From Acidobacteria bacterium 13_1_20CM_58_21 (GTDB lineage Bacteria > Acidobacteriota > Terriglobia > Acidiferrales > UBA7541): a DNA stretch of 38,213 nucleotides. The DNA lies in assembly GCA_001919715.1 (NCBI GenBank), contig MNIJ01000107.1:1-38213 (forward strand), in the 5' to 3' direction. The position numbers and the translations under genes are program-made. Under the pieces are notes generated by a model, which worked only from the letters and a program-made list of their open reading frames with translations, had not been told where the DNA came from and made no database searches. Below are positions 7,744-38,213 of this stretch, one piece after another (positions within the stretch are counted from its first letter, which is position 1; each line of letters begins with the position of its first letter).

Positions 7744-8240
7744 GTGCTCTCCGGTGATCTGCTTTGTTGAATGCGCCAATGCCCGGTGTGCAGAACGTGA
7801 TAGGCAATCATAACAATACCATTTTCCGGCGGAGGGCGCTGCACGACTGTACAAAAACGAACACAATGAGTGAATAGCCCGTCCTTTCCCCGGCCAACCC
7901 TTCAGAGACTGCCTCATTTGCCCTTTTGCGAATGCGAATTGACTCCCAGTACGCCTCCCGTTGGATTTTCTGGATACCCTGACCAGGGAGAAACCTCGAC
8001 TGGCAACGAGTCGAGAAATTTCCCCCCGATGAATACATCGGCCGCCTATCACTCACCCGGGCAGTTTTCGCAACTACCTTCTTGAGCGCTTGATTCATAT
8101 AACTGGAATCGTGCCGTTTCTTGTTCCCCCTAAACGGCCCCAAACGGCCTTGACACCTCAAACTCGCAGGCCTAGAGTCGCTCCGGCCGGTTTCGCTTGG
8201 TCCCCAAAAAGCTGCCGCTGAGCTTCCTTCGGAGGTTTCC

Positions 8241-9143
8241 ATGGTCATTCTCATCGCAGGTTCCACAGGCTTCGTCGGCGGCAATGTGGCTCTCAAACTC
8301 AAGGAGAGCGATCACAAGGTTCTCGCCCTGGCGCGCGGCGGCCGCCGCAATCCCAAGGCTCAGCGCCTCCTTGAGGCTGGAGTAGAAGTTCTCGATGGGG
8401 ACTTGACTCGCTCCGACTCTCTGTTCGCGTCTTGCTCCGGCGTCGAAGCGGTTGTTACCACCGCCACTTCTATGCCGAGCGGTCCCGATGACGGCCTTCG
8501 CCGCGTGGATCACGAGGGCACCCTCGGCCTGATTGACGCCGCGGCGCGCCAGGGTGTTCGCCGGTTTGTCTACACCTCCTACTCTGTAAATATCCAGGAA
8601 GACTGCGCCCTAACCGCTGCAAAACGGGATTGCGAAGCCCGCTTGCTCTCCGGCCCCATGGAAGCCGTCATTTTGCGGCCTTCATATTTCATGGAAGCTT
8701 GGCTTAGTCCTGTCCTGGGCTTCGATCCTGTCGGTGGCGCCGCTCGCATCTGCGGTTCTGGGGAAGCTAAAGTAAGCTACATTTCTGCCTGCGATGTCGC
8801 CGACTTTGCAGTAGCCGCGACTACGAAGGTGTATTCGCAAGAAAATGTAATTCTTGAACTGGGCGGCCCGGAACCTCTGTCCCAGCTCGACGCTGTGTCC
8901 CTGTTCGAGCAAGCCCTCGGCAAGGAGATCAAGGTGGACCATGTTCCGGTCGAAGCACTTCGCGCGCAGCATCAGTCCTCGGATCCTCTGCAAAGAACTT
9001 TTGCCGCGCTCATGCTCGGTTATGCGAACGGAGACCTGGTGAAGGATGCCGCCAGCGCTGCCGAGGCCCACGGCATCCGCTTAGGGTCGGTTGCTGATTA
9101 TGCTGCTGGTTTTCGCGCGCGTTCCGCCGCAGCCGGTCCTTGA
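8241..9143 (+). CDS. NAD(P)H-binding NmrA-like / atypical short-chain dehydrogenase family protein
   Basis: N-terminal dinucleotide-binding motif VILIAGSTGFVGGNVALKL and NmrA-like layout (VRRFVYTSYSVN, VILRPSYFME). Confidence 0.85.
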   Translation: MVILIAGSTGFVGGNVALKLKESDHKVLALARGGRRNPKAQRLLEAGVEVLDGDLTRSDSLFASCSGVEAVVTTATSMPSGPDDGLRRVDHEGTLGLIDAAARQGVRRFVYTSYSVNIQEDCALTAAKRDCEARLLSGPMEAVILRPSYFMEAWLSPVLGFDPVGGAARICGSGEAKVSYISACDVADFAVAATTKVYSQENVILELGGPEPLSQLDAVSLFEQALGKEIKVDHVPVEALRAQHQSSDPLQRTFAALMLGYANGDLVKDAASAAEAHGIRLGSVADYAAGFRARSAAAGP

Positions 9144-9918
9144 GATTCCATCTACTGCCCGACCAACCTAGGGCAGAACGGCTTCCAGCACCCCATTCTC
9201 ACCTGGGGCAATGGCACCGATTCCCTCTCCGGCAATTACACGTTTTTCCTGAAACACATGGCCTCCTGGGGATTCGTAATCATCGCCGCACAGGACAAGA
9301 ACTCCGGTGTGGGGCAAACCATCCTGGACGGCGCGAATTTCCTGACCGCCGCCAACGGCAACTCCCCCAGCATCTTCTTTCACAAGCTGAACGTTAGCCA
9401 GGTGGGCTCGTTCGGACATTCGCAAGGCGCCACCGGGGCGGTCAACGCGCTAATCAAATCCGCAGGGATGATCAAAACCGTCTTGGCTATCGAGCTGCCC
9501 GGCCAACAATTCTGCGCTAACCCGCTGAATTGTACCGATACCTCGCACCTCACGCAGGGCTCTATCTTTTTGGTGGACGGCTCGCTCCGACATTCCGATT
9601 TCGCCGCCTATGCAGCCGGCATCAGCCACCCGACTGCAATCTATCGCCGCGTACTACAGCGCCGTGCCCGTGGGCGTCATCAAAGTGAAAGGTACGCTGA
9701 TCGGCCCAACGCATTGTGACGTCCAGGGCGCGCCCACTTGCACGCCGACCACGGTGCCTTGTTTCCTCGGCGTGTATGGTTATTTGGGTTACCCGAAGGC
9801 GTGGATGATGTTTCAACTGCAGAATGAAAACTTGGCGGGCGGCGCATTCGTGAACGGCACCGGAGAGATTTTTGTGGAGACCACGAATTGGCAACTGGTT
9901 GCCAGCAATGTTCCTTAG
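9144..9918 (+). pseudogene. Remnant of a secreted alpha/beta hydrolase (chlorophyllase / PET-hydrolase-like fold), 5'-truncated and frameshifted
   Basis: Frame 9144-~9650 reads DSIYCPTNLGQNGFQHPILTWGNGTDSLSGNYTFFLKHMASWGFVIIAAQ...VGSFGHSQGATGAVNAL (GHSQG nucleophile elbow); continues in another frame as AAYYSAVPVGVIKVKGTLIGPTHCDVQ...TGEIFVETTNWQLVASNVP*. No start codon or signal peptide; begins directly after the upstream TGA. Confidence 0.75.
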
Positions 9919-13524: not shown

Positions 13525-14256
13525 CTACTGGCCGCGAACCTTCCGGAACAGCATGGTCAACGGATCGTAAAACTCGTCCACCACGCGCTCTTTGAGCGGG
13601 ATGATGGCATTGTCGGTAATTCGAATCTCCTCGGGGCAGACCTCGGTGCAACACTTGGTGATGTTGCAAAGACCCAAGCCGAGCTGATCCTTGAGAAGGG
13701 CTGCGCGATGGCGGCCGTCGAGAGGATGCATTTCGAGGCCGGCGATTCGAACGAAGAAGCGCGGGCCGGCGAATTGCTCTTGCTTGTCGTGTTCGCGGAG
13801 GACGTGACAGACGTCCTGGCAGAGAAAGCATTCGATGCACTTTCGAAACTCTTGGACGCGGTCTACATCGAGCTGGGAGATTTTCCATTCCACTCCCTTG
13901 CGGGGTTCGAAAGGAGGGATCTTACGGTTGACACGATAGTTCCAGGAAACGTCGGTGACAAGATCTTTGATTCGGGGAAAGGATTTCATGGGCAGGACGG
14001 TGATGGGCTGGTCTTGCGGGAGATCGTCCATGCGAGTTTTGCAGGTCAGGCGGGGGCGTCCGTTCACTTCCGCTGAACAGGAGCCGCACTTCCCTGCTTT
14101 GCAGTTCCAACGGACGGCGAGGTCCGGAGCGAGGTGACCCTGAATGTGGTGGAGCGCGTCGAGGACCACCATGCCCGGGGCGACCGGGACGCGATAGTCA
14201 ATCGTTTGCCCGCCATTCGAATCGCCGCGAAAAACGCGCAGGGTGGCTTCCTTCAT
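13525..14256 (-). CDS. sdhB: Succinate dehydrogenase / fumarate reductase iron-sulfur subunit
   Basis: CKAGKCGSCSAEVNGRPRLTC (2Fe-2S) and CIECFLCQDVCHV...CNITKCCTEVCPE (4Fe-4S/3Fe-4S); start taken at ATG 14256, overlapping the upstream stop. Confidence 0.95.
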   Translation of the reverse strand: MKEATLRVFRGDSNGGQTIDYRVPVAPGMVVLDALHHIQGHLAPDLAVRWNCKAGKCGSCSAEVNGRPRLTCKTRMDDLPQDQPITVLPMKSFPRIKDLVTDVSWNYRVNRKIPPFEPRKGVEWKISQLDVDRVQEFRKCIECFLCQDVCHVLREHDKQEQFAGPRFFVRIAGLEMHPLDGRHRAALLKDQLGLGLCNITKCCTEVCPEEIRITDNAIIPLKERVVDEFYDPLTMLFRKVRGQ

Positions 14257-14617
14257 GACGGTTCCCCTTTCTTCGAGCGCTGCATGGCTTCTTCCCAACC
14301 AAGAGGTAGCACCGAGCACAAGACGTTCCACTTGGTGAACTTCGTCGGACCCAGGTGGGGCATCATAGCTTTCCTAGCTTGCCCGTGCGGAATTCCCGCG
14401 ACGAAATCCATCAGAGTTTTTTCGCCGTCCCAGGCAGAGAGAGTCCAAATTGCGGCTCAGCAGCTTGGCGCGCAGGGAGTATCCGGTGATTCCGGGAGTG
14501 CTGCGCGACTGCTTTTGGATCTGCGACGCAAAGCGAAGGAAACCGGGGATGGCCGGGTACTTGTTCAACGGCCGGTAGTAGAGCAGAGCGAAATACTCGC
14601 GGCTCCTTGCAGTTCAT
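14253..14617 (-). pseudogene. Small conserved-looking protein between sdhA and sdhB, reading frame interrupted
   Basis: Stitching frames gives ...REYFALLYYRPLNKYPAIPGFLRFASQIQKQSRSTPGITGYSLRAKLLSRN/WTLSAWDGEKTLMDFVAGIPHGQARKAMMPHLGPTKFTKWNVLCSVLPLGWEEAMQRSKKGEPS*; ATGA-type overlaps with both the sdhA stop and the sdhB start. Confidence 0.65.
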
Positions 14618-16335
14618 GACCTGTCCTCGGCAAGAATCTGCTGGAGATCCTCGGGCATGGCCTCCAGGGGGGATTCGTGGCGTTTCATAGCGCCGGATTC
14701 CCGGACAATGATGTTGTGTTTCTTCTCCCAGACCGGATCCACATTCGGATAGTCGATGCGGCTGTGCGCGCCGCGGCTTTCCGTGCGGGCCAATGCGCTG
14801 AGTGTCACGGCTTCGGAGACGATGAGCATGGCTTTCAGGTCGTACGAGAGATGCCAGCCGGGGTTGAAGAGACGTGAACCTTCGACACTGGCTTTGGCAG
14901 TGCGGACTTTTAGTTTTCCTAGCTCGACGAGCGCTTTTTCCAAATCTTCTTTTGTACGATAAATCCCGACGAGATTCTGCATGACTTCCTGTAAGTCACG
15001 CTGCACGGCGTAAGGACTTTCCGTGCCGGAGTTGGAAAAGGGAGCAAGCAATTCTTTTTCGGCTTGATCGATTTGCGAGTTGTCGAAGGAAGAAGCAGAA
15101 GCGCGCTTGGCGTACTCGGCGGCGGCAAGTCCGGCGCGACGGCCGAAGACCAGCAGATCGGATAGCGAATTTCCGCCCAGGCGATTCGAACCGTGAAGAC
15201 CTGCGGCGGCTTCGCCTGCCGCAAACAGACCGGAAATCGTGGACTGCGCCGTTTCGGCCTCCACGCGGATGCCCCCCATCATGTAGTGACAGGTGGGGCC
15301 AACCTCCATCGGCCCGTTGGTAATATCCACGTCGGCCAGTTCCTTGAACTGGTGATACATGCTGGGAAGTTTCTTCTTCACGTATTCGGCGGCCTTGTGA
15401 GAAATGTCAAGATACGCGCCGCCATGCTCGGTGCCGCGACCTTCCTTCACTTCGGTGTAGATGGAGCGGGCAACGACGTCACGCGTGGAAAGCTCCATGC
15501 GCTTGGGGTCGTACTTCTCCATGAAACGCTCGCCCGCTTTGTTGCGCAGGATGCCGCCTTCGCCGCGGACTGCTTCGGTGACAAGAATGCCCTGGACGCC
15601 GGGCGGCCAAACCATTCCGGTAGGATGGAACTGGACGAATTCCATGTCCATGAGCTCGGCGCCGGCTTCATACGCGAGCGCCATGCCGTCGCCCGTGTAT
15701 TCCCAGGAATTCGAAGTGATGCGCCAGGCTTTACCGATGCCGCCCGTGGCGATGACGATGGCCCTGGCTTTGAAGACGATGAAGCGGCCGGTCTCGCGCC
15801 AATAGGCAAAGGCACCCGTCACGCGACCACCATCGGTGAGAAGGCGGGTAACGGTGCACTCCATGTAGGCATCGATGCCCTGTTGAACGCCGCGATCCTG
15901 GAGCGTGCGAATCATTTCGAGGCCGGTGCGGTCGCCGACGTGACAGAGGCGTTTGAAGGTATGGCCGCCGAAAGCGCGCTGTAGAATGTCGCCTTTCTCG
16001 GTGCGGTCGAAGAGTGCGCCCCACTGCTCGAGTTCGCGGACACGCTCGGGAGATTCCTGTGCGTGAAGCTGAGCCATGCGCCAGTTGTTGAGCAATTTTC
16101 CGCCACGCATAGTGTCGCGAAAATGAGTTTTCCAATTGTCGGCGGAGTCCACGTGGGCCATGGCCGCGGCGATGCCGCCTTCGGCCATAACGGTGTGGGC
16201 TTTGCCAAGAAGCGACTTGCAGACCACACCGACAGAGGCGCCCTGGGCGAGCGCTTCGAGCGAGGCCCGCAATCCTGCACCGCCCGCGCCGATGACGAGA
16301 ACGTCGTGCTCGCGGGTCTCATAGTTCGTGGTCAC
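14614..16335 (-). CDS. sdhA: Succinate dehydrogenase / fumarate reductase flavoprotein subunit
   Basis: HDVLVIGAGGAGLRASLEAL FAD-binding motif, QFHPTGM, RGEGGILRN, TTNYE start; GTG start at 16335 overlaps the sdhC stop. Confidence 0.95.
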   Translation of the reverse strand: MTTNYETREHDVLVIGAGGAGLRASLEALAQGASVGVVCKSLLGKAHTVMAEGGIAAAMAHVDSADNWKTHFRDTMRGGKLLNNWRMAQLHAQESPERVRELEQWGALFDRTEKGDILQRAFGGHTFKRLCHVGDRTGLEMIRTLQDRGVQQGIDAYMECTVTRLLTDGGRVTGAFAYWRETGRFIVFKARAIVIATGGIGKAWRITSNSWEYTGDGMALAYEAGAELMDMEFVQFHPTGMVWPPGVQGILVTEAVRGEGGILRNKAGERFMEKYDPKRMELSTRDVVARSIYTEVKEGRGTEHGGAYLDISHKAAEYVKKKLPSMYHQFKELADVDITNGPMEVGPTCHYMMGGIRVEAETAQSTISGLFAAGEAAAGLHGSNRLGGNSLSDLLVFGRRAGLAAAEYAKRASASSFDNSQIDQAEKELLAPFSNSGTESPYAVQRDLQEVMQNLVGIYRTKEDLEKALVELGKLKVRTAKASVEGSRLFNPGWHLSYDLKAMLIVSEAVTLSALARTESRGAHSRIDYPNVDPVWEKKHNIIVRESGAMKRHESPLEAMPEDLQQILAEDRS

Positions 16336-24323: not shown

Positions 24324-24992
24324 ATGGCGAGCGTAGCTAGGCGGTTATCGGGACCGATTGTTTCCAATGAAGATTCGCGTAAGGTCTTCATCTCCGAGAT
24401 TCGCGAAATGGCCGACAGCCACTTCACGGCACTCTCCGACTCGGACCTTATCGAACACCTCAAGGGTGGCTCGCGCCAGGCACTGGGGATTCTTTTTCTT
24501 CGATACCGGCGTCTTGTCTTGACAGTTAGCCTGCGAATCTTGCGGAACAACGGCGAAGCGGAAGACGTTGTTCAAGATGTCTTCCTGGAAATTTGCAAGA
24601 AGGCGGCAGCTTTTGATTCCGGTCGCGGTAGCGTGAAGATGTGGATTTTGCAGTATGCTTACTCGCGAAGCCTGGATCGCAGAAGGTATCTTGCGCTTCG
24701 GCATGCTGACGGGCACGGGGCGAATGGCGGCGGGTACTGTACCAAGCATTCTTACGCTTACAATCCGCATGGGCCGGATGGGTTGACAGTGGAGGAGCGC
24801 GCCACTGCAATACGCAAGGCACTAACGAATCTGCCGACCAAGCAGAGAAAGGTACTTGAATTAGCGTATTTTCAGGGCCTGTTGATGACGGAAATCGCCG
24901 AATGTATGAGCGATAGCCTTGGGAATGTTCGAAATCAGTACTACAGGGGTCTCAAGAAGCTGCAGGATGCCTTAGGTGATTTTTCGGCGTGA
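24324..24992 (+). CDS. ECF-type RNA polymerase sigma factor
   Basis: Sigma region 2 (GILFLRYRRLVLTVSLRILRNNGEAEDVVQDVFLEI...KMWILQYAYSRSLDRRR) and region 4 (LTNLPTKQRKVLELAYFQGLLMTEIAECMSDSLGNVRNQYYRGLKKL). Confidence 0.93.
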   Translation: MASVARRLSGPIVSNEDSRKVFISEIREMADSHFTALSDSDLIEHLKGGSRQALGILFLRYRRLVLTVSLRILRNNGEAEDVVQDVFLEICKKAAAFDSGRGSVKMWILQYAYSRSLDRRRYLALRHADGHGANGGGYCTKHSYAYNPHGPDGLTVEERATAIRKALTNLPTKQRKVLELAYFQGLLMTEIAECMSDSLGNVRNQYYRGLKKLQDALGDFSA

Positions 24993-25005
24993 ATGGGATT
25001 TGACT

Positions 25006-26307
25006 ATGGAGAACCCCGGCACAGTTCACGAACGCTTTGGCGAGCTTTCCGCACTGGCGATCATTGGTCAGGCGTCGGCCGAGGAGTACCGTGATCTGAA
25101 AGCGCATTTGGAATTGTGCGCTGCCTGTCGCAAGGAGCATGATGCCCTTGCCCGAATCCTGCTGGCAGAACTCCCGCTGGCTCACGAGGAGAAAGATTCT
25201 AACCTTGAGCCCTGGGCCGCGGCGCGACAGACTGAGGCGAGCCGGCTGAATTCCATGAGTGGCAAAGTTTCTCTGCTCGACCACTCACTCAAACATGGAG
25301 ACCGGATCTTGAACCGCTGGCCGAGATTACGCGGAATGCAGTCGCCGTCTGTTTATGCATACGCGGCCATTTTTCTTTTGTTTGTCACGGCGGGGGCACT
25401 GACAATTCGCGTTGCGAACGAGTCGAAGCTCGACAGTGTACGCTCTGCGGAAGTTGCAAGCCTAGACGAAGAGATTGTTGGACTCCGAAAGCAGATTCAC
25501 GATCTGGATGAACGTACGAGCAATTCTCTTCCTGCTAGCCCAAGCATTCCAGCGATAACCAAAAGTGGCGAAACTACCAGCTCAGAGCCTAAACATTCTA
25601 GGCTGTTAACGCGCAATCTGGAACTCGAAACACAACTAAGAATCGCAACTGAAGAAATAGCAATCCTCAAGCAAGAGGCGCGTTCAGGAGTGGACCGCGA
25701 GCGCCAGCTCTCGGCAAGATTGTCCGAGACTCAGGACACGCTAGACAAGCTAACTACCGAGTCGAGAACTGTCCGTGAATCTCATTCGGAGGACACCTCT
25801 ATCATCGCAAAACAACAGAGCCAGTTGCTCGACATGGAAGAAAGGCTTGCCTCAGCCGCAAGTTCGATGGACCGCGACAGAACGCTTCTTGTTGCCGATC
25901 GCGATATTCGCGATCTGATGGGAGCACGCAACCTCAGAATCATCGATATCTTTGATGTGGACAGCAAAGGAAGAACCCGCAAGCCTTTTGGCCGTGTCTT
26001 CTTCACGGAAGGGAAATCACTGATCTTCTACGCTTTCGATTTGGCGAATGAGCAAGCCGGTTTGCAATCTGCGGCGTACCAGGCGTGGGGTTCTGAAGGT
26101 TCATTTGAGCATGGCGTCCGCAGCTTGGGAATTTTCTATCGCGACGATCAAAAGGCAAATCGCTGGGTACTCAAATTCGACGACCCCGATGTTTTGGCGG
26201 AAATCGATTCGGTATTCGTTACCACTGAACCGGCTGGCGGCAGCAAGAAACCGACGGGTGGCAGACTCCTCGCAGCCTTCGTCAAGGCTAACCTCAATCA
26301 TCCATAA
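25006..26307 (+). CDS. Anti-sigma factor, zinc-finger + single TM + coiled coil + RskA-like C-terminal domain
   Basis: HLELCAACRKEHDAL (HxxxCxxC), TM VYAYAAIFLLFVTAGALTI, C-terminal DSVFVTTEPAGGSKKPTGG as in RskA-type anti-sigma domains; directly downstream of the sigma factor. Confidence 0.85.
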   Translation: MENPGTVHERFGELSALAIIGQASAEEYRDLKAHLELCAACRKEHDALARILLAELPLAHEEKDSNLEPWAAARQTEASRLNSMSGKVSLLDHSLKHGDRILNRWPRLRGMQSPSVYAYAAIFLLFVTAGALTIRVANESKLDSVRSAEVASLDEEIVGLRKQIHDLDERTSNSLPASPSIPAITKSGETTSSEPKHSRLLTRNLELETQLRIATEEIAILKQEARSGVDRERQLSARLSETQDTLDKLTTESRTVRESHSEDTSIIAKQQSQLLDMEERLASAASSMDRDRTLLVADRDIRDLMGARNLRIIDIFDVDSKGRTRKPFGRVFFTEGKSLIFYAFDLANEQAGLQSAAYQAWGSEGSFEHGVRSLGIFYRDDQKANRWVLKFDDPDVLAEIDSVFVTTEPAGGSKKPTGGRLLAAFVKANLNHP

Positions 26308-26596: not shown

Positions 26597-29500
26597 ATGA
26601 AACGGGTGGGGATTGGTGTCCTTAGTTGTCTCGCCGTGCTGCTTTTCCTGTACGCTAGCACCGCACGGCCAGATGAACTGGCAACCGTGACAGGCTACGT
26701 CACTGACCCGGGCGGTCTCCGAATTGCCGGCGCGAAGGTCCAGGCGACGAACGTCGAAACTAATGTCTCCTTCTTTGGCGAATCAAACGGTGAAGGACTC
26801 TTCCGAATTGGAGGGCTTCCTGTCGGATCTTACCGTATCGTCATACAAAAGACAGGATTCAAAACAACCGTTAAGCAGGGACTGGAACTGCACGTTCAGG
26901 ATATTGTGGCCCTCAATTTCCAGTTGGAAATCGGCTCTGTCGCAGAAAGCGTAACAGTTGCTGCGGAAGTGTCTCTGGTGAACACGGAGTCTGCCGCGGT
27001 GAGCACAGTAGTGGACCACGAGTTCGTCGAAAATCTTCCCATTAACGGCAGAGGTTTTCAGACTCTCATTGCACTGTCACCGGGAGTTGTGTTGACACCC
27101 GCAAATCAAACGGACTCCGGACAATTTAGCGTTAACGGTCAGCGCTCGAGCACGAATTACTTCACGGTAGACGGCGTGAGTGCGAACGTCGGTGTACAGC
27201 CTACGCCCTATCTCTCTCAGACGGCAGGTGGTTCGACGCCCGGCTTCAGCGTTACGGGGGGCACAAACAACCTTGTTTCCGAGGACGCCCTGCAAGAGTT
27301 TCGGATTCAGACTTCTACGTTTGCGCCCGAGTTCGGGAGGACTCCGGGCGCGCAGGTTTCCATCGTGACCCGCTCCGGCACCAATCAGTTCCATGGCGCA
27401 GTGTTCGAATTCTTGCGGAACGACAAACTGGATGCGAATGACTGGTTTGCAGACCGAGAAAAGCTGGCGAAAGCTGAAGAGAGAATCAATGACTTCGGAG
27501 GGGTGTTCGGCGGCCCGATCGTAGGAAACCGAACATTTTTCTTCTTCTCCTACGAAGGACAACGACTGCGCTTGCCACAGACAGTGCTGTCCACTGTGCC
27601 TTCCATCCGATTGCGCAATGATCCGAATACGTCTGCCGGGGTTTTGCCCTTTCTCAACTTGTATCCGCTCCCTCTTTCCGCTACTCCCGAAAATACGGAT
27701 TCGAGCGGAAATCAAACGGGGCAAACGCCTTTCAGCGCCAGTTTTTCCAATCAATACACCTTGAATGCAACGAGCTTTCGGCTCGACCACAGACTGAACG
27801 ACCGACTGATCCTTTTCGGCCGCTACAACTACGCGCCGACGGAAGCACACGAGCGAGGCCTAGGCGCACTGAGCAATTTGCAGAATACTCGCGTTGATGC
27901 GGAAACACTGACCATGGGCCTGACATGGACTCCGACGGTAGTTACCAGCAACGAGTTTCGATTCAATTACAGCCGGGTTAAGGCCAATAATTCCAGCAGG
28001 ATGGATAATTTCGGGGGCGCGGTTCCCCCGCAAGACTCCATTTTGTTTCCATCGCCTTTTAGCAGCACAGACTCGACGACTGGATTTGCCATTTTTGACA
28101 TGCAGAATGGAGGCTGGAGCACTGGCAAGGGCGCAAACAACCTTCAGAGACAGTTCAACATTGTTGATAGTTTTTCTTTCCAGAAAGGATCGCATGCGCT
28201 CAAATTTGGAGGTGATTACCGACGGCTGACCCCAAAGTATGATCCGTTTTCCTATGAGCTGGTGCCCGTGTTCCTAGGTTTAAATGATCTTGTTTCGGAA
28301 AACCCCTTCGAGGTTATCTTGGAAGCAAACACCGGAGCCACAGTTCTATTTCGCAATTTGGGACTGTTTGCGCAAGACACTTGGAAAGTCATGCCGCGGC
28401 TCACTCTGACTTACGGACTGCGCTGGGACGCGGACTTCGCGCCAAAGGCGCTGAATGGGCCTCCACTCGCCGCAGTAACCGGATTCAATGATCTAAGCAC
28501 CATGTCTTTGGCACCCGCGGGCACACCGATTTTTGCCACTACTTACGGTAACGTCGCCCCACGAATCGGCGCGGCATTCCAGCTGCGACAAAGCCAGAAT
28601 TGGGAGACGGTCCTTCGCGCAGGTTTTGGCTTTTTTTATGATCTCGCCACGGCGCAGGCTGGGGATCTCCTGCAGTTTGGCAATTATCCCTATGGGGCGA
28701 ACGAAACCCTATGCAGCTTTTGTCCGTCTCCAGCTCCCAGTTTTCCCTTCAACTTCTCGGACCCTGCTCTGCGACCACCACCGATCAACGTTGCATCCCT
28801 TCAGAATGGAGCCCTTGGGGCCTTTGATCCAAATCTGAAGTTACCGCGAATTTATCAATGGAATTTGAGCGTCGGGCAGTCCCTCGGCGCCAAGCAGGCG
28901 TTAACGGCATCGTATATCGGCGCGGTTGGGCGGCGTCTTATCCAGGAAGAACTCGATTTTGCGAACGGGAATCCTATTCTTGGATTCGTTCAGTTGGCGC
29001 GCAACGCGGCTACGTCGGACTACCATTCCCTGCAGCTTCAATTTCAGCGTCAAATGTCGAAGGGAGTCCAGGTTCTAGCCTCGTATACTTTTTCTCATTC
29101 CATTGACACGGCCTCCAGCGGGTCCACTGGTGGGAATACCAATCTCTTTGTCAGAGGCGACGATCCAAACATCAACCGGGGTGCTTCGGACTTCGATATC
29201 CGACACAGTTTTTCCGGCGCTCTGGCTTACTCCATTCCTGTGCCACGAAATAAGGGGTTAATGCGTGCGGCTCTCGGCCACTGGTCAATAGATAATATTG
29301 TGCAAGCACGGTCGGCGCCGCCAGTCTTTGTCCTGGATACTAATGTTTTTAGAACTGACGGAAATTCCGCCGTTCTCCGTCCCAATCTTGTTCCGGGACA
29401 GCCACTGTATCTCTACGGGCCCCAATATCCAGGCGGAAAGTCGTTCAACCGCGCGGCGTTGACCGATCCGGGAACCGACGCGAGTGGAAACCAGCTCCAG

Positions 29501-29809
29501 GGGACACTGGGACGAAACGTGTTCAGGGGATTCGGGGCTTGGCAGTGGGACTTTGCCGTCCGCCGGGAATTCCACATCCATGGGAAAGAATCTACTCGGC
29601 TGCAATTCCGGTCCGAATTCTTCAATATTCTGAACCATCCCAATTTTTCCGCGCCTGTGGGTGACCTAGCGAGTCCCAACTTCGGAGTGTCCACGCAGGT
29701 ATTGTCCAGAGGCCTGGGGGGAAGCTCCGCAGGGGCTGGCGGATTCAATTCGGTGTTCCAATTGGGTGGACCCCGTTCGATTCAATTTGCTTTGAAGCTG
29801 CTTTTTTAG
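26597..29809 (+). CDS. TonB-dependent receptor with N-terminal carboxypeptidase-regulatory-like domain (Oar-like)
   Basis: 1070 aa; signal peptide, ATVTGYVTDPGGLRIAGAKVQATNVETN, plug region (LPINGRGFQTLIALSPGV, FSVNGQRSSTNYFTVDGVSAN), barrel C-terminus ending in aromatic Phe. Confidence 0.92.
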   Translation: MKRVGIGVLSCLAVLLFLYASTARPDELATVTGYVTDPGGLRIAGAKVQATNVETNVSFFGESNGEGLFRIGGLPVGSYRIVIQKTGFKTTVKQGLELHVQDIVALNFQLEIGSVAESVTVAAEVSLVNTESAAVSTVVDHEFVENLPINGRGFQTLIALSPGVVLTPANQTDSGQFSVNGQRSSTNYFTVDGVSANVGVQPTPYLSQTAGGSTPGFSVTGGTNNLVSEDALQEFRIQTSTFAPEFGRTPGAQVSIVTRSGTNQFHGAVFEFLRNDKLDANDWFADREKLAKAEERINDFGGVFGGPIVGNRTFFFFSYEGQRLRLPQTVLSTVPSIRLRNDPNTSAGVLPFLNLYPLPLSATPENTDSSGNQTGQTPFSASFSNQYTLNATSFRLDHRLNDRLILFGRYNYAPTEAHERGLGALSNLQNTRVDAETLTMGLTWTPTVVTSNEFRFNYSRVKANNSSRMDNFGGAVPPQDSILFPSPFSSTDSTTGFAIFDMQNGGWSTGKGANNLQRQFNIVDSFSFQKGSHALKFGGDYRRLTPKYDPFSYELVPVFLGLNDLVSENPFEVILEANTGATVLFRNLGLFAQDTWKVMPRLTLTYGLRWDADFAPKALNGPPLAAVTGFNDLSTMSLAPAGTPIFATTYGNVAPRIGAAFQLRQSQNWETVLRAGFGFFYDLATAQAGDLLQFGNYPYGANETLCSFCPSPAPSFPFNFSDPALRPPPINVASLQNGALGAFDPNLKLPRIYQWNLSVGQSLGAKQALTASYIGAVGRRLIQEELDFANGNPILGFVQLARNAATSDYHSLQLQFQRQMSKGVQVLASYTFSHSIDTASSGSTGGNTNLFVRGDDPNINRGASDFDIRHSFSGALAYSIPVPRNKGLMRAALGHWSIDNIVQARSAPPVFVLDTNVFRTDGNSAVLRPNLVPGQPLYLYGPQYPGGKSFNRAALTDPGTDASGNQLQGTLGRNVFRGFGAWQWDFAVRREFHIHGKESTRLQFRSEFFNILNHPNFSAPVGDLASPNFGVSTQVLSRGLGGSSAGAGGFNSVFQLGGPRSIQFALKLLF

Positions 29810-29883
29810 TTGGCTTCAATTGCAGAATGTTCCTCTCGGCTCCACGGGGAGAAGTTTTCAAGAATGCAAGGCGGAGGAATCCG

Positions 29884-32097
29884 ATGGGCGTTCTACAGAA
29901 CTTGCTTGTGCGTCATGCCTCGGCTACCTGCGCTGCTGTGCTGCTATTTGTGCTCTTCCCGTTTCTTGCACGCGCGCAGAGTCAGCATCTTGTAACGCTG
30001 GATGATTTGACTTCACAGATGAAATTCGTCGGCCAATATTTGGAGCTTTCACCCGACGATGAGACTCTGGCCTACAGCATTGAGAACGACGACAGTCTCT
30101 GGCTACTGAACGTCAAGGCACGAACTTCCCGTACTTTAGGCCAGGGATTCCTGCCACGCTGGTCTCCGGATGGCACCAAGCTTGCATTTTATTCGACGCG
30201 CAGCGGGACACTCCAATTGTGGATTCTAGACCTGAAGACAGACACATCGACCCAACTGACTAATCTTGAAGGTGGCATTGATCCCAATCCCGTGGCCGGA
30301 TTGAGCGGCTCGGATGAAGATCCGCTTCGATATTGTTGGTCGCCTGATGGCACAAGAATGGTTTTTGCGTCTCGAATGCATGCGCGTGGAAATGAGAGCA
30401 CCCGAATTTCACCGTCCAACGGGGACGGCAAAACAAGTCCAGCCACAGATCTTCAGCATCAGCCGGAGGGCACTCCTATCGTACTGACTAAGACAACGCC
30501 TCCGGAATGGACGGACAGCGGCCTTTTTCGCTATGGGGAATATCAGACTGCCTTATCTGCTAGAGGACCTGGATCAGGTACCGAGGCGGACTCATCGGGA
30601 AAGTTTCTGGCAAGGCAGGCCACCCAACTCTTTACAGTGAATATCGTGGACAAGCGCATGCAACAGCTGACCAACGATGATCGCGGGTATTTCACGCCTG
30701 ACTGGGCACCTGACGGGACTAAAATCGTGTTTATGTCGAGCGAGGGGAGGCCGATTACGGGTTACGGACCCGATACCACGAATCTTTACGTCATGCAACT
30801 TGCGGACCGCAAGGAGACGCTCCTGACGTCGGGTGTGGGCCAGAAAAGGCTGCCCTCTTATTCTCCGGATGGAAAATGGATTTCCTATTTGGGCTGCCAA
30901 CAGTTCGAGCAGGCCGCTGCTTATGTGGTATCAAGCACTGGCGGCACGCCTATAAGTGTTACCGAGCAATTGGACCGAAACGTTCGCGTTGGCCCTTATT
31001 GGTCGCCGGACAGCCATGCCCTTTTCGTTTCGTATCAAGACGGGGTTTCTATTTTGATCGGGCGAGTTTCCACTGCTGATGGAAAACTGCAACGTTTGTT
31101 CGACGACCACGCGTTCCGTGCTCCGTTTACTGTCTCTCGCGCGGGGAGCCTGATATGGGTGCAAGCGGATGGAACAAGTAGCGAGGTGATTTACAGGGCA
31201 GACTCGGAAGGCCGTAATACGGGTGAGTTGCTGGATTTGAACCCGAAAATCCGGGAATGGGCGCTTGGGAAGCAAGAAGTAGTGACTTGGAAGAACGGTC
31301 GCGGAGACGAACTTGAAGGAATTCTGATCAAGCCCGTGGGCTATCAGCAAGGAAAGTCCTATCCGCTGATTGTGGATCCCTATCCGGGCTTGGCGAACGG
31401 CTTCATGGGCGGTGCGATGAGCGGCAACCAAGCTTTCGCGTCGCGCGGGTACGCGGTTTTCTTCGCTCGCGAGCGGACCGCGCACACTTGGGAAAACCCG
31501 ACTCACGGAGACGCGTTTAATAAGGCCACGCGCGGGCCGCAAGGCGCGGACATCATGATGGATGATTTGATGAGCGGCATTGACGCGGTCGTAAAAATGG
31601 GCGTGGCCGATCCGAACAGGATGTGCCTCTATGGCTTCAGCAATGGAGGCGGCGCGACGAATTTGATCGTGACGAGGACTTCGAGGTTCAAGTGCGCGGT
31701 TTCGGCTTCAGGCGTAATGCCGGATTGGACGACTGCTTTCTTTCTTATTGACCCAGGCACTTTTGTGAAGCTCATCGGCGGCGTAGCGCCATGGGAAGAC
31801 CCGGGAGCGTACATCAAATTGTCGCCCGTCTATCATTTGGACAAGGTAACGACGCCCATGCTTCTGGCCGCCGGAGACAAAGAGACTTCGGGGGCTTTCA
31901 TGGCCCTGGAAATGTACACAGGCCTGCGCTACTTGGGCCGCGAGGTCACCTTCCTGCGGTACCCTAATCAGGGGCATGGCTTTGAAGGAGCGGCGCTAAA
32001 GGACTACTGGAAGCGCGCGAATACATTCTTTGACTTCTACCTCCATCCGGAGCCGCCCTCAATAGAGAGAACACCCGTGGCAACACTGAAGCGATAA
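29884..32097 (+). CDS. Secreted S9-family (prolyl oligopeptidase-like) peptidase; candidate lasso isopeptidase
   Basis: Signal peptide MGVLQNLLVRHASATCAAVLLFVLFPFLARAQ, beta-propeller WSPDGT repeats, GFSNGGGA (catalytic Ser), NQGHGF (catalytic His). Start taken at ATG 29884 with a GGAGGA ribosome-binding site. Confidence 0.88.
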   Translation: MGVLQNLLVRHASATCAAVLLFVLFPFLARAQSQHLVTLDDLTSQMKFVGQYLELSPDDETLAYSIENDDSLWLLNVKARTSRTLGQGFLPRWSPDGTKLAFYSTRSGTLQLWILDLKTDTSTQLTNLEGGIDPNPVAGLSGSDEDPLRYCWSPDGTRMVFASRMHARGNESTRISPSNGDGKTSPATDLQHQPEGTPIVLTKTTPPEWTDSGLFRYGEYQTALSARGPGSGTEADSSGKFLARQATQLFTVNIVDKRMQQLTNDDRGYFTPDWAPDGTKIVFMSSEGRPITGYGPDTTNLYVMQLADRKETLLTSGVGQKRLPSYSPDGKWISYLGCQQFEQAAAYVVSSTGGTPISVTEQLDRNVRVGPYWSPDSHALFVSYQDGVSILIGRVSTADGKLQRLFDDHAFRAPFTVSRAGSLIWVQADGTSSEVIYRADSEGRNTGELLDLNPKIREWALGKQEVVTWKNGRGDELEGILIKPVGYQQGKSYPLIVDPYPGLANGFMGGAMSGNQAFASRGYAVFFARERTAHTWENPTHGDAFNKATRGPQGADIMMDDLMSGIDAVVKMGVADPNRMCLYGFSNGGGATNLIVTRTSRFKCAVSASGVMPDWTTAFFLIDPGTFVKLIGGVAPWEDPGAYIKLSPVYHLDKVTTPMLLAAGDKETSGAFMALEMYTGLRYLGREVTFLRYPNQGHGFEGAALKDYWKRANTFFDFYLHPEPPSIERTPVATLKR

Positions 32098-32197: not shown

Positions 32198-32332
32198 TTA
32201 GTCGTCGAGTTCGCAATCCGCAACCAGGGCTTTTCCGAGGGGTACACCGGGATCGTGAAGACTGTGTTTCGATCCTTCGATGACTTTCGTGGCTTCACCG
32301 AGGATTGCGAGTTCAGGTTTTTGGTAGCGCAT
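32198..32332 (-). CDS. Candidate lasso-peptide precursor 1 (44 aa)
   Basis: MRYQKPELAILGEATKVIEGSKHSLHDPGVPLGKALVADCELDD; leader YxxPxLxxxG; proposed core from Gly20 with Asp at core position 8. Start at ATG 32332. Confidence 0.78.
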   Translation of the reverse strand: MRYQKPELAILGEATKVIEGSKHSLHDPGVPLGKALVADCELDD

Positions 32333-32366
32333 GACTTGGGTTTCACCTTTCTCTGAATTAACCCGC

Positions 32367-32391
32367 CCCGGCGTGCCGGTAGCACGCCGGG
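32367..32391 (-). promoter_or_regulatory. Strong intergenic stem-loop between the two precursor genes
   Basis: Minus strand CCCGGCGTGC-TACCG-GCACGCCGGG, perfect 10-bp stem, 5-nt loop; no T-tract follows. Confidence 0.75.
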
Positions 32392-32413
32392 AGCAGGTTG
32401 TCTTGCTCACTGC

Positions 32414-32557
32414 CTAGCTGTCGAGTTCAGAGTCGGTGGAGACAAGCAGGTTCTTGATGAACGATGGTTGTCCCGGCTCCTGCGCTTGCTGCTTGTGTCC
32501 CAGAATGACGCTGGTGGCGTCGCCCAGAACGGCAACTTCAGGTTTCACGTAGCTCAT
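32414..32557 (-). CDS. Candidate lasso-peptide precursor 2 (47 aa)
   Basis: MSYVKPEVAVLGDATSVILGHKQQAQEPGQPSFIKNLLVSTDSELDS; homologous to precursor 1; AAAGGAGGTGAAAATC ribosome-binding site before ATG 32557; Gly20 with Glu at core position 8. Confidence 0.8.
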   Translation of the reverse strand: MSYVKPEVAVLGDATSVILGHKQQAQEPGQPSFIKNLLVSTDSELDS

Positions 32558-32640
32558 GATTTTCACCTCCTTTCGTTTCCAGCGGCCCGTCAATTCGCGC
32601 GCGAAATGATCGGGTCGGCAGGAACTCAATTAAATCCATC

Positions 32641-32688: not shown

Positions 32689-34599
32689 TTAAGCTGGAGA
32701 GTGAGCCAAATTCATTTTTGGCTCCGTGGCTTCCAGGGGCGGGGAAGTAACCAATTCGCTGCGAGCCATGTCTCGCAGCCAAAACTCCAGAGTCATGGCG
32801 CGCATGAAATCGACGAAGTCAATGGACATGTTGCCCGACTTCATTTCTTCTAAGGCCTTGCGATACTTAGCAGGATTGACGTAACCGCGTCTGCCGATCA
32901 TTGGAGAGGCGAAGACGTTCTGCAGCATGTTCCAATTTTTTTCAATGAGAACAATGTGGCAGCGTGCCGCGCCTGCCTTTGTTTTTCTCAGGCGGACCTC
33001 ACTTGGAAGGATGTTCGCCAGAGCACGGCGCATCAGGGAGCGGCGTTCGCCCGGTCTAAGAAACTGATCTTGTGGAACGGAAGTCAGGAAGTCGACCAAA
33101 TCCCGGTCAAGGTACGGGTAGGTCATTTCCAAAATGGAAGGACGGTGTTCTCCCATCTGGCGCGCCAAAGTCGCGAGAGTGATATCCCAGTCTTGCATGC
33201 TGGGAAGTCTGAACCAGCGCTTTTGGATTCCCCCCAGCTTGCGTTCAGCCATGCGGTACTGACGGACAAATTTCGGGTCGAACCAAGGCTCTGGCCGCGC
33301 ATGTTTGGTCATCTTTGACTGCAGAGAGATCGGAAAAAAGAGTCTGCAAGTTTGCAGGAATAAGTGAATCCAAGGCCTCTTCATGTACAGGCTCCATGCC
33401 TTCAATTGCTTTGCAAATTCTCCGAGTCGAAACTGTGCGATAAGATCGCCCATCATGACGCGCGGATCTGAAGCCATGCCGTTGATCTCATCTCCGCCGG
33501 TACCAGAGAGCCCAACGCGGTATCCACCTTCGCGAAACATTTGTTCTTGGGCCGTCTTCATATCGTCGGGCCGGTCAGGAAGTGGAATGGGAGCAAAACG
33601 TGGATATTCGAGACAGTAGGGCGCGTCGAATTTGCTTGTGTCAAGATGTAGCCCTTTTCTGCCGCGCTTCTCTTCGATCTTCGTGAGGTAAAAGAAATCG
33701 TCGCCGGCGGGTTCGTTGATGTCGTAATAAGAGAAAGTGTCTAGTCGGGGAGTCCGCAGCCCTTCCTTTTGAAGAATGCCATCGGCCACGCACACGATTG
33801 ATGAGGAGTCCAATCCGCCGCTCAGTTCGGCCAATATTGGACAGTCCGACCGCAGTCGCCGGCGAATCGCCTGCTGAAAGAGGTAGAGATAGTGATGTTC
33901 GTAGTCTGCATCGCTCTTATACTTGATAAGTTTTTGGGGTTCGAATTTCCAATAAGGATGGGCCGTCACGCGGCCTTGATGAATTTTAACGTAGCTTCCT
34001 GGAGGAACGGCACGAACTTCCCGGTAGGGTGTGAGGTCCGCGTCCGGATGAGCGATGAGAAAGCCAGCGATGTATTCGTCGTCCACGGTAAATTGGATGC
34101 CCGAAAGCAGGACGATCGCAGAGAGCTCAGTACACCACATCACGCTCTCGCGAGTGCCGTAGTAGTAGAGATTTCGAACCGCCGAATAGTCCCGGGCCAG
34201 GAAAACAGACTTCTCGGCTGGATCCCAGACGGTCAGCGCCCAGTCTCCTATCAATTTCTTGAAACTCCGTGTTCCCCACTTCTCGAAGGCTGCGGCGACA
34301 ATTTCCAAGTCCGTTCGATCCGCTCGCATTAGCAGGCCAAGTTCAGAGATTAGCTGGCCGCGATTGTCCAGACGGCCATCCCACATCATCAGTTTTCCGT
34401 GTCCGAAAGTGTGTGGCTGACTTTCGAGCCGCGACTCCGGAGTGGTGTGAAATGGCCGGTAAAGGAAACCGATGGAACCGTGGACCTCCCTCTGGTTTCC
34501 GTCCGGTCCACGCTCCGCAAGAATGGCGCTCATCCGATCCAGAAACTCCGTATCGACGGGGCGACCGTCTAAGCACCACACTCCGGCTTGCACGCTCAT
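32689..34599 (-). CDS. Asparagine-synthetase-like lasso-peptide cyclase (C protein)
   Basis: SGGLDSSSIVCVADG PP-loop ATP-pyrophosphatase motif; glutaminase-like N-terminus lacking the Cys2 nucleophile (MSVQAGVWCLDGR); GAAGGAG ribosome-binding site before ATG 34599. Confidence 0.88.
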   Translation of the reverse strand: MSVQAGVWCLDGRPVDTEFLDRMSAILAERGPDGNQREVHGSIGFLYRPFHTTPESRLESQPHTFGHGKLMMWDGRLDNRGQLISELGLLMRADRTDLEIVAAAFEKWGTRSFKKLIGDWALTVWDPAEKSVFLARDYSAVRNLYYYGTRESVMWCTELSAIVLLSGIQFTVDDEYIAGFLIAHPDADLTPYREVRAVPPGSYVKIHQGRVTAHPYWKFEPQKLIKYKSDADYEHHYLYLFQQAIRRRLRSDCPILAELSGGLDSSSIVCVADGILQKEGLRTPRLDTFSYYDINEPAGDDFFYLTKIEEKRGRKGLHLDTSKFDAPYCLEYPRFAPIPLPDRPDDMKTAQEQMFREGGYRVGLSGTGGDEINGMASDPRVMMGDLIAQFRLGEFAKQLKAWSLYMKRPWIHLFLQTCRLFFPISLQSKMTKHARPEPWFDPKFVRQYRMAERKLGGIQKRWFRLPSMQDWDITLATLARQMGEHRPSILEMTYPYLDRDLVDFLTSVPQDQFLRPGERRSLMRRALANILPSEVRLRKTKAGAARCHIVLIEKNWNMLQNVFASPMIGRRGYVNPAKYRKALEEMKSGNMSIDFVDFMRAMTLEFWLRDMARSELVTSPPLEATEPKMNLAHSPA

Positions 34600-34612
34600 C
34601 GTGATCGCTCCT

Positions 34613-34990
34613 TCAGCATTTTTCCCAGACGCCATACTTCAACTGCACGTCACTATTTGTTTCGTTGACCGGTCGTCCGTCTACTTCTACCCACGCATGT
34701 GCTCTGAATGGGTACTTCTGAGCACCCAAAATCATTCGTGCGGGCACGCCCTGATTTCTAAGCAGGCAAGTGGTCACAGCCGCGCGCTGTAGACACATGA
34801 CGCGTTTCGGATACCACATCAGGGCATGGTTGACAGCATTGCACACGCGCTGAACGGTTTCCGCTCCCACTTCGCTGCGCCGCACAGGCCAGTCGCGGAC
34901 AATCCTATGTACTCCCGAAAATTTCTGGCGAGGTAAAAACACGTCGTACGCAAGCAGGCCAAGGAATGATTTCCAGAACATTATGGTCAT
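34613..34990 (-). CDS. Lasso-peptide biosynthesis B2-type protein (transglutaminase-like leader peptidase)
   Basis: RVMCLQRAAVTTCLLRNQGVPARMILGAQKYPFRAHAWVEVDGRPVNE: Cys and His of the Cys-His-Asp triad in the characteristic B2 context; 9 nt from the upstream stop. Confidence 0.9.
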   Translation of the reverse strand: MTIMFWKSFLGLLAYDVFLPRQKFSGVHRIVRDWPVRRSEVGAETVQRVCNAVNHALMWYPKRVMCLQRAAVTTCLLRNQGVPARMILGAQKYPFRAHAWVEVDGRPVNETNSDVQLKYGVWEKC

Positions 34991-34999
34991 CGTAGTTCC

Positions 35000-37084
35000 C
35001 TAAATAGTTAATCCTAGCTCGTGACAAATAAAAGAGAGCCTGTCGGTCAGGGCGGCGGCGCGCAGATCCAATGACTGGCCCGGCCAGTGGCCCCAATCCT
35101 GTTTGTAATCGAGGAGAATGGGACGCCCGGAAGTAGTCGCTGCCTGGAGCCGCGCAGTCATCTTTCTGACATGCATCGGATTACAACGATGATCGGCGTC
35201 TCCCGAAATCAACATCACCGCGGGATAAGCGGTCCCGTCTTGCACGCGGTGGTAAGGAGAGTAAGCCTTCAAAGCTTTGAAGTCGTCCTCCTTATCTGAA
35301 GAGCCGTATTCCTCCACAAACCATGCGGCAAGATCGAACTTGTGATACCGCAACATGTCCAGCAAAGGGCCGAGGCAAAGAACCGCACGAAATAGGTCCG
35401 GTCGCTGCGTCAGAGCTGCGGCAACGAGCAGACCGGCGTTCGAGCCTCCACCAATAGCCAGTTTCGCCGGTGCGGTATAACCTTTTGTCACAAGCCATTC
35501 AGCTGCGGCGACAAAATCGTCGATGGCATTTTGTCGTTTGTGCCTTTTGCCGGCTAAGTGCCACTTCGCTCCTAATTCCGATCCACCGCGCAGGTTCGCT
35601 ACAGCAAACAGAAAACCATTCTCGATGAGAAATGCCGCGTAAACGGCAAACCGTGGCACGATGGACGCTCCAAATCCTCCGTAACCGGTTAGAAAAGTCG
35701 GTCTCGGTGACGAAGCACGATATCCCCTACGACCCACCAAGGAGATCGGAATCTCGGTGCCATCTTTCGAAGGATAGGTGGCTTGTGTTACCTCGATCGC
35801 CGATGAATCAAAAGGAATGTTGCCTCGAGCCCAAATTGTCGATTTTCGCGTGGAAGCGTTGTAAGCGTGAGTTTCAGGCGGCTTTGCATAGGACGTTAGT
35901 TGGTAGAAAAGCGTGTCGTCCGAAGGCCACCAAGATAGCAAATCCACGGTACTTTCATCTGGACAAGCAAGGCAACCCTGTCTTCGACCCGCTAGGTTAA
36001 AGATATCAATTCGGGTTCTGCAATTCTCGATGTAGCTGATAAAAAGGAGTTCGCCCGCGATCGCCAAATCGTAGATGCGATGTTCAGACTCGGGGACTAT
36101 TTCTCGCCAGCCCTCTCGAGTTGGCTTTTCCAAAGAGATTTCCAACACCCGAAAGTTGGGTGCTTTCCAATCGGTCAGCGCGAAAAGCCGATGCCCAACA
36201 CAATAGAGGTTAAAATGTCCTTCGAGTTGCATCGCAATCGGGCGTGGCGGCTTGCTATCGGGCAGATCATGGACGTAAATGTCAGTGAGGCGGGGGCCTT
36301 GCAAAGAGCTCACAAGGTAGACCAGTGCGCGCTCCCCCGCCCGAAACATTGTCAAACGCCGATTCTCGCCATCTTCGATAACGAAAAGTTCTGCGTCCTG
36401 GTCCAGCGCGGTTCCTAACAAGTGCCGGCAAACGGATTGCCTTGACGAACGAGCCTTCTCAATACTTGAGTGCGAATAGTAAAATCCTGTTCGGTCCGGA
36501 CAGAAAATAAGTCCGAAACACAATCCATGCGGCAATCGATCAGACAAAACCGTTCCTGTTTCCACATCCATGAATTCCACCGCATAAGCATCTTCGCCGC
36601 CATGGCGGACGCTGTAGGCCATTAATTTCGCGTCATCAGAAATGGCAAGTAGGTTGACGCTCGTCGTGGTGCCCGCTTGTCTCTCGGCGGGATCTACTAA
36701 GCAAATGTCTTCGCTTGAGACAGAATCGTCCCGTCGCATCATGATGACCGGTTGCTGCTGATGCGCTGCCCTTTTCAGAAAGAAGTAGCAACCACCAACT
36801 TTCCACGGTTCGGAGATGAATTCGACATCTAACAGTTCTTTGATTCGTTGCCCGATCCGGTTCCGGCTTGGAATGGCATCGAGGATTTCACGAGCGTATG
36901 AGGTTTGTTCCTTGAGCCAGGTCCGCGTTCGCGGCGAATTCTGGTCTTCCAGCCACCGATAGGGATCTGTGATGCCGACACCATGCAACACTTCAGTGAC
37001 GGGTTCAACAGGGGTCTCTGGTGGTGGAGTTACTGTTAGCGTCACGCGTTTATACCTTGCACCAAATAACTTTTCGTTGATCAA
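35000..37084 (-). CDS. Prolyl oligopeptidase (S9A-like), first gene of the lasso operon
   Basis: ITDPYRWLEDQNSPRTRTWLKEQ N-terminus, GYGGFGASIVPRF, ANLRGGSELGAKWHLAG, GGGSNAGLL (Ser), SGDADHRCNPMHVRK (Asp), DWGHWPG (His); no obvious signal peptide. Confidence 0.93.
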   Translation of the reverse strand: MINEKLFGARYKRVTLTVTPPPETPVEPVTEVLHGVGITDPYRWLEDQNSPRTRTWLKEQTSYAREILDAIPSRNRIGQRIKELLDVEFISEPWKVGGCYFFLKRAAHQQQPVIMMRRDDSVSSEDICLVDPAERQAGTTTSVNLLAISDDAKLMAYSVRHGGEDAYAVEFMDVETGTVLSDRLPHGLCFGLIFCPDRTGFYYSHSSIEKARSSRQSVCRHLLGTALDQDAELFVIEDGENRRLTMFRAGERALVYLVSSLQGPRLTDIYVHDLPDSKPPRPIAMQLEGHFNLYCVGHRLFALTDWKAPNFRVLEISLEKPTREGWREIVPESEHRIYDLAIAGELLFISYIENCRTRIDIFNLAGRRQGCLACPDESTVDLLSWWPSDDTLFYQLTSYAKPPETHAYNASTRKSTIWARGNIPFDSSAIEVTQATYPSKDGTEIPISLVGRRGYRASSPRPTFLTGYGGFGASIVPRFAVYAAFLIENGFLFAVANLRGGSELGAKWHLAGKRHKRQNAIDDFVAAAEWLVTKGYTAPAKLAIGGGSNAGLLVAAALTQRPDLFRAVLCLGPLLDMLRYHKFDLAAWFVEEYGSSDKEDDFKALKAYSPYHRVQDGTAYPAVMLISGDADHRCNPMHVRKMTARLQAATTSGRPILLDYKQDWGHWPGQSLDLRAAALTDRLSFICHELGLTI

Positions 37085-37305
37085 ATAAGTGGCGGTGGCC
37101 TACCCTTCGGATCAATTTCTTCGTGGCGACCGCGGAATCGGCGAACCGACCTTTGCACTTTGTTGCGTAACAGCTTCTCAAAGCATCGCAACTTTCACGT
37201 CGCAGCTTGCGTAGGGCCGCGGAAAAGGCTAGGCGATGAGGCTGGGAACAACTTTGAGGGCTCGCGCAGGATGCACCACGTGGGAGGCTCGGATCAAGGG
37301 AAATC

Positions 37306-37344
37306 AGTTAGCCTATCCGGCCAAAGAGTTAGTCTATCCGGCCA
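37306..37344. repeat. Two-copy direct repeat AGTTAG(C/T)CTATCCGGCCA with 21-bp period
   Basis: 37306-37323 agttagcctatccggcca and 37327-37344 agttagtctatccggcca, one mismatch. Confidence 0.85.
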
Positions 37345-38213
37345 TAAATAGGGGGGCTTAAGGCCCAAGTTTTGATATTTGGTTCGGAAAATCGTTTGCG
37401 CGTCATTTTGATATCACACAATATAACAGTATACACTATATTATAGCTTGATGGTTACTCAGTGATCTTTGGGCGAGAGTCTCGACTTCATTGCACAACT
37501 GCTCGTTGCGTGAAGCGGCGCGCGCCACTTGAATATTCCGATACGGTATGGCCGTTGCCAAAGAGTTTGTACTTATACGTGGTAAGACTCGATAACAAGG
37601 CCGACTGGTCCGCGGGCATGGAGCTTGCTGGTGCGGATCAGTGCCGTCCCAATGCGGTTTCTTCGTCTTGCGGCCTTAGGGCGATGGTGGTCTGGGACTC
37701 TGTGTTCGTTACTGCTTTGATGGCTGTCAGCCCCTTCTACTACTCGGACGGACGGAAAATCTTCTGGACAAACCGGAAGCGGGTGCATAAAATGTTTTTC
37801 GGCCGTTGGCTTTTGGAAGTTACAGGAGGCAGGGTTTCGCTCCAGAACGCGGCGAAAAAGAGTATCTGATAAGCCTTTCTCGAGAAACCACCTGCCCAAT
37901 CCTCGCGACCCAGTCTCCCAGACACCTCAATCACCAGGTGGCAGAGCTATTGAGGAACAGGGATGATCGTGTCGAAAAATACTTCTAGGGTACAGCTATT
38001 CGCCAGTCTTTCTCCGGTGAAAAGCTGTTTTCGTGGGCACGTGCTAGAATCGCGTTCCAATTCCTACCTGCGGCGGGGCTCCGACTCGATCCCCGATGGC
38101 TGCTTTCCTTTCCGACCTGTTACTTTGCGTCCATCTCCGATTTCAAAATTGGCTCCGCCGTCAAAGCTGGAGTGCCACCGAGGCCGACTGATCTGTGATT
38201 CGCAAGCGATGCT

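Follow-up and report, generated by a model that had tools for sequence, protein, structure and literature searches.

Do two short open reading frames lying side by side in an acidobacterial contig encode lasso peptides and, if so, which residues close their rings? The window, that is, the whole stretch of 38,213 nucleotides that was analysed, is one entire contig of a MAG that is 63% complete. We consider it likely that the two frames, A1 and A2, are lasso peptide precursors with a leader of the Ile(-2) type, that they belong to an isopeptidase-type cluster of an uncultured soil bacterium of the Terriglobia and that their rings join Gly1 to Asp8 or Glu8.

Two probable precursor genes in tandem

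Both genes lie on the minus strand, 81 bp apart, and each has a Shine–Dalgarno match and homologues in related loci. A2 (32414–32557) encodes 47 amino acids, MSYVKPEVAVLGDATSVILGHKQQAQEPGQPSFIKNLLVSTDSELDS, behind the Shine–Dalgarno sequence AAAGGAGGTG (32564–32573, minus strand), and A1 (32198–32332) encodes 44 amino acids, MRYQKPELAILGEATKVIEGSKHSLHDPGVPLGKALVADCELDD, behind a Shine–Dalgarno-like element, AAAGGTGA (32343–32350, minus strand); both elements were recognized by sequence. An earlier note on this DNA had described two tandem precursors that align without gaps through residue 31, and both frames are indeed there. The leader comprises residues 1–19 in each, 12 of which are identical, and translation confirms the core lengths given in the note for a start at Gly20: 25 residues for A1 (GSKHSLHDPGVPLGKALVADCELDD, codons 32275–32201) and 28 for A2 (GHKQQAQEPGQPSFIKNLLVSTDSELDS, codons 32500–32417).

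Beyond the leader, A1 and A2 share Gly20 (codons 32275–32273 and 32500–32498, respectively), Lys22 (32269–32267 and 32494–32492), an acidic residue at position 27 (Asp in A1, 32254–32252; Glu in A2, 32479–32477) and a PGxP motif. The remaining ring residues had been called divergent, which is wrong for Lys22, as it is common to both peptides and conserved across the family. The claim that a single ring is possible holds in part: a ring from Gly20 fits both precursors, but A1 offers a second candidate of seven residues, Gly33–Asp39, that has no equivalent in A2. A core start at Gly12, correctly described as open to A1 only, was rejected; it lies inside the conserved leader.

The pair is more than a chance occurrence, because it stands directly behind a lasso cyclase and a B2 gene and because about 80 related loci, with one to four precursors each, repeat this leader behind this set of genes. 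Both window leaders read YxxPx(L/V) with Ile or Val at −2, in the register described in PMC10368454; Y3, P6, L8, I18 and G20 correspond to −17, −14, −12, −2 and +1 of BsfA (Leu or Val at −12). For BsfA, from Bradymonas sediminis, mass spectrometry has proven that the leader is cut behind Ile(-2)-x(-1) (PMC10368454), and the matching register makes Gly20 the likely residue 1 of the window peptides.

Genes around the precursors

Transcription on the minus strand runs through a prolyl oligopeptidase (POP), B2 and C to A2 and A1, and a convergent row on the plus strand holds a sigma factor, an anti-sigma factor, an outer-membrane protein and an S9 peptidase. The AsnB-like lasso cyclase C (32689–34635, minus strand; true start probably Met13, near 34599) matches PF00733, and its best model is NF033535, where it reaches 321 bits (E = 1.4e-95) and stays short of the curated cut-off, 525. 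Its ATP motif, SGGLDSSS, is intact, and SGGxDS is invariant among the cyclases compared. The transglutaminase-like leader protease B2 (34613–34990, minus strand; PF13471) scores 76 bits with NF033537, above the curated cut-off of 33, and retains the catalytic Cys and His, with Glu rather than Asp at the third triad position. This Glu (motif HAWxEx..NE) occurs in all 6 B2 proteins of the window's own clade, defined below; a tie between it and Gly20 was rejected, as about 10 sister loci also have Glu. The POP (35000–37084, minus strand; PF02897 and PF00326; start probably a GTG near 37045) is without a signal peptide, shares the operon of B2, C and the precursors, and recurs in roughly half of the related loci. 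We rejected a role for it in trimming the tail at a conserved Pro, given that not all precursors have a Pro ahead of the tail and that only 19 of 42 sister loci have the enzyme.

On the plus strand, an ECF sigma factor (24324–24992; TIGR02937, above cut-off) is followed by an anti-sigma factor (24976–26307; PF10099, a weak PF13490 match and NF052375) and an outer-membrane beta-barrel protein with a CarboxypepD_reg domain (26597–29809; PF25183, 502 bits), all three also identified by synteny. The barrel, of the Oar or TonB-dependent-receptor type, is the presumed importer. Next to it lies an S9 peptidase with a distant likeness to AtxE2 (29827–32097, plus strand), the presumed lasso isopeptidase. 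Its Ser-Asp-His residues are present and its best NCBIfam model is that of the Atxe2 family, NF033523, with 174 bits (E = 5.6e-51) against a cut-off of 400; among solved structures, AtxE2 (5txc, E = 5e-20) comes third and the nearest chain is another S9 peptidase. As judged from sequence, the gene layout is that of isopeptidase-type lasso clusters, in which an outer-membrane receptor and sigma/anti-sigma genes stand beside an S9 peptidase. The Pfam scan of the locus proteins showed no ATP-grasp ligase, the mark of a graspetide locus. Counting against the lasso reading are the low scores of the cyclase and the S9 peptidase relative to their curated cut-offs and the lack of a B1 gene on the contig.

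The upstream end of the contig

B1, a PqqD-like RRE protein, was not found on the contig, which ends 1.1 kb beyond POP, and this last stretch (37085–38213) contains no long ORF and no remnant of a kinase gene or of B1. Nor was a B1 of lasso context found elsewhere in the bin. Its other PqqD matches were rejected as B1 candidates, being parts of a PQQ operon or of radical-SAM or HPr-kinase-like loci, or false (CsbD-like). Among the bin's loci, one has a PqqD gene beside an HPr-kinase-like ORF and a radical SAM protein (L052, 6525–8808) and another, in the same genome, a PqqD gene beside a kinase-like ORF (L054, 7477–9049); each is possibly another RiPP locus.

These absences, together with the non-coding 1.1 kb upstream of POP, would also fit an inactive locus, from which the MAG has lost the B1 and transporter genes of its close relatives. 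We regard this as quite improbable: every ORF present is intact, completeness of the bin stands at 63%, and the contig extends for only 1.1 kb upstream of POP; in L094, L095 and L097, B1 lies 2–3 kb upstream of POP. In relatives, the region upstream of POP holds a transporter, a phosphotransferase or B1; B1 is upstream in most related loci, and many have both B1 and an APH-type phosphotransferase (PF01636) there. The close relatives L094, L097 and L099 carry an ABC transporter there instead (13693–15492, 1182–2999 and 7376–9145, respectively). Their loci thereby unite a transporter with the isopeptidase-type arm, which a review calls exceptional (PMC9266682).

Relatives and the probable ring of the window peptides

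Cyclase searches of 396 genomes from the phylum, 399 from the class and 89 from the family, and of named genomes, returned dozens of Terriglobia loci with the same two-armed layout. The homologue set comprises 137 precursors from 88 loci, and a cyclase tree was built. The window's own clade (SH-aLRT 99) consists of 8 loci with 13 precursors: the window, L119, L093, L133, L094, L099, L098 and L144. The sister groups comprise 71 loci with 109 precursors, from Terriglobia and from a Pyrinomonadaceae and a Bryobacterales locus; 15 canonical acidobacterial lasso precursors were placed in the same alignment.

All 13 own-clade precursors have Ile or Val at residue 18 and 12 have Gly20, with the acid at core position 8 in 8 precursors and at position 9 in 4 (12/13 at 8 or 9); among the canonical precursors, Gly20 and an acid at 8 or 9 are each found in 14 of 15. 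The pattern of a residue 1 with Asp or Glu at positions 7–9 is seen in the window (D8 and E8) and does not hold in the Lys-anchored sister groups. The proposal that Gly20 is residue 1 and the acid residue 8 is therefore supported for the window pair in the BsfA register, although close relatives have the acid at 8 or 9 and not always at 8. Similarly, the expected conservation of Gly20 and an acidic residue 27 among homologues applies to the own clade, with the acid at 8 or 9, and fails in the 71 sister loci, which keep neither; as a rule for the whole family the proposal thus falls to the condition that the note itself had named as refuting it. Because the own clade retains Gly20 and the acid, and because the leader matches that of BsfA, the ring of the window pair is best read as Gly1–Asp8/Glu8.

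The conservation of Lys22 in 11 of 13 own-clade precursors counts against a Gly1 ring, which leaves it unexplained, and so does L144, a clade member with Ser20 and no Lys. The side-chain amine of Lys22 could instead close the ring on Asp27 or Glu27, with Gly20-Ser21 or Gly20-His21 hanging free. A Lys is present in all 109 sister precursors as well, at a near-fixed offset from the acid while residue 20 and its distance to the acid vary, and by our calculation a ring from the epsilon-amine of Lys(i) to Asp(i+6) would have 26 atoms, close in size to a lasso ring of 8 residues. Own-clade offsets, however, are mostly +5 (23 atoms), shorter than the +6 to +8 of the sister groups, whereas the distance from Gly to the acid gives normal rings of 8 and 9; L094 has Arg22, L144 is without the Lys, and Gly20 is conserved. 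We know of no AsnB-type enzyme that closes a ring from a Lys side chain, and we consider such a ring unlikely in the window peptides.

If Lys22 were itself core residue 1, with B2 cutting just before it and its alpha-amine closing the ring, the window ring would have 6 residues, a size that to our knowledge has never been reported. In the sister groups the same start would yield rings of 7, 8 and 9 residues (49, 45 and 15 precursors), which is the known range (PMC9266682). Nevertheless, 107 of the 109 sister precursors keep Ile or Val at residue 18, at the validated cleavage distance, and no conserved residue or motif precedes the Lys; we give this arrangement very little credence in the window peptides. 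With Lys22 spaced at +5, closer to the acid than in the sister groups, and with Arg in its place in L094, Gly1 remains the first choice for the window. Lys22 is probably a remnant or a secondary residue of the ring.

With Gly1 as the ring amine, B1, encoded off the contig, would bind the YxxPxL leader, B2 would cut after residue 19, C would adenylate Asp8 or Glu8, and the Gly1 alpha-amine would close a ring of 8 residues that encircles the PGxP tail. Once exported, the product would return through the Oar-type outer-membrane protein under sigma/anti-sigma control, to be opened by the S9 peptidase. The window clade is nested in a wider family, where the place of the ring acid goes with an invariant Lys and not with residue 20.

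A lysine rule in the sister family

Every one of the 109 sister precursors has a Lys with Asp or Glu at +6, +7 or +8 (49, 45 and 15 precursors); Gly stands at residue 20 in just 33 of the 109, and the acid ranges over core positions 8 to 18. Examples with residue 20 unconstrained are L038, L113, L128, L176 and L192. With one precursor per locus the rule holds in 70 of 70, compared with a mean of 14.1 and a maximum of 24 in 300 shuffles, and no residue other than Lys shows such spacing to the acid. Of the 52 cores with a single Lys, 47 have their first acid, counted from +3 onwards, at +6 to +8, compared with a mean of 7.9 and a maximum of 18 after shuffling; in an earlier locus set, 46 of 47 loci followed the rule (shuffled mean 11.7, maximum 22). 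On the tree the Lys position changes 41 times, the acid position 44 times and the spacing between them 27 times. The Lys was picked by its spacing, which makes a comparison of spacing variance partly circular, and the shuffles carry the case; the loci that follow the rule are mutually related. The shuffles and the fewer tree changes for spacing indicate that the acid is tied to Lys and not to residue 20.

We conclude that in the sister clade the Lys probably marks the start of the ring or supplies its amine, as far as alignments can tell. One tentative possibility, which we hold to be somewhat doubtful, is that the sister AsnB-type cyclases close the ring from the Lys side chain to the Asp or Glu 6–8 residues on, leaving 1–11 N-terminal residues free, and that the window clade returned to Gly1. 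Such a product would be a lasso whose lactam joins two side chains. By arithmetic, such rings to Asp at +6, +7 and +8 would have 26, 29 and 32 atoms, compared with 22–29 for lasso rings of 7–9 residues. A side-chain ring would explain why the Lys is invariant, why Gly is no longer required as residue 20 and why the overhang varies. On a third reading, the Lys may be a ring residue that is recognized by the cyclase, the receptor or the isopeptidase. Conservation between paralogues, compared to see whether the spacer from residue 20 to Lys goes with the leader or with the core, is 0.54 in that spacer, 0.69 in the leader and 0.34 in the ring. Cleavage after the Lys was rejected; it gives rings of 5–7, and the K+1 residue is not conserved.

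Other features recur in the family. The acidic C-terminal tail is strongly conserved (AYEADE, AYDLDE and GYADWE across the family, ELDD-like in the own clade) and is 84% identical between paralogues of one locus; astexin tails are also acidic at the C terminus, as in the window precursors. Two tandem, divergent cyclase genes stand beside 1–4 precursors with GYADWE-type tails in L103, L109, L110, L111, L112 and L114. In Granulicella sp. L60 (L178), three precursors place a Cys two positions ahead of the candidate ring acid (CQD, CPD and CSD), and the first of them has three Cys in total.

Comparison with known systems

The window precursors resemble BsfA in YxxPxL at −17 to −12, Ile(-2), Gly1, Asp8 and the split B1/B2 (PMC10368454). 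The Ser3 kinase and the D transporter of the Bsf cluster do not appear on the window contig, and, unlike Bsf, the window has POP, the S9 peptidase, the outer-membrane protein and sigma/anti-sigma factors. Lasso precursors with Ile or Val at −2 and phosphotransferases have been reported in silico in Acidobacteriaceae, including strain TAA 166 (PMC10368454), which is L186 in our locus set. The main text of that paper does not contain the word 'lysine', and we found no report of the Lys–acid spacing rule in the literature searched (supplements and most subscription journals lay outside its reach).

The astexin, sphingopyxin and benenodin clusters likewise combine a cyclase, a leader protease, an S9-type isopeptidase homologue, an outer-membrane receptor and sigma/anti-sigma factors (PMC9266682). 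The window differs from them in Ile(-2) rather than Thr(-2), the split B, the Oar-type barrel, the extra cytoplasmic POP, the convergent gene order and an S9 peptidase distant from AtxE2. Metanodin also comes from a soil-metagenome lasso cluster with an isopeptidase; it differs in its origin (Steroidobacterales), Thr(-2), Asn1 and lack of a Lys anchor, and its Asn shows that residue 1 is not confined to Gly, Ala, Ser and Cys (PMC12670498). For the Lys reading of the sister family only, graspetides provide a RiPP precedent in their omega-amide lactams between a Lys side chain and Asp or Glu (PMC13097080); they are made by ATP-grasp ligases, whereas the window has an AsnB-type cyclase and B2, with B1 expected.

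Implications

The homologue comparison gives A1 and A2 a concrete, testable ring. Lasso mining predicts rings from a small residue 1 placed 7–9 before an acid, and more than 100 acidobacterial precursors depart from this rule, all of them alike in having an invariant Lys; automated tools would therefore mis-call or miss them. If the Lys supplies the amine, the family would represent a new ring chemistry for AsnB-type lasso cyclases; if the Lys is residue 1, it would add a new kind of residue 1 and move the leader cut.
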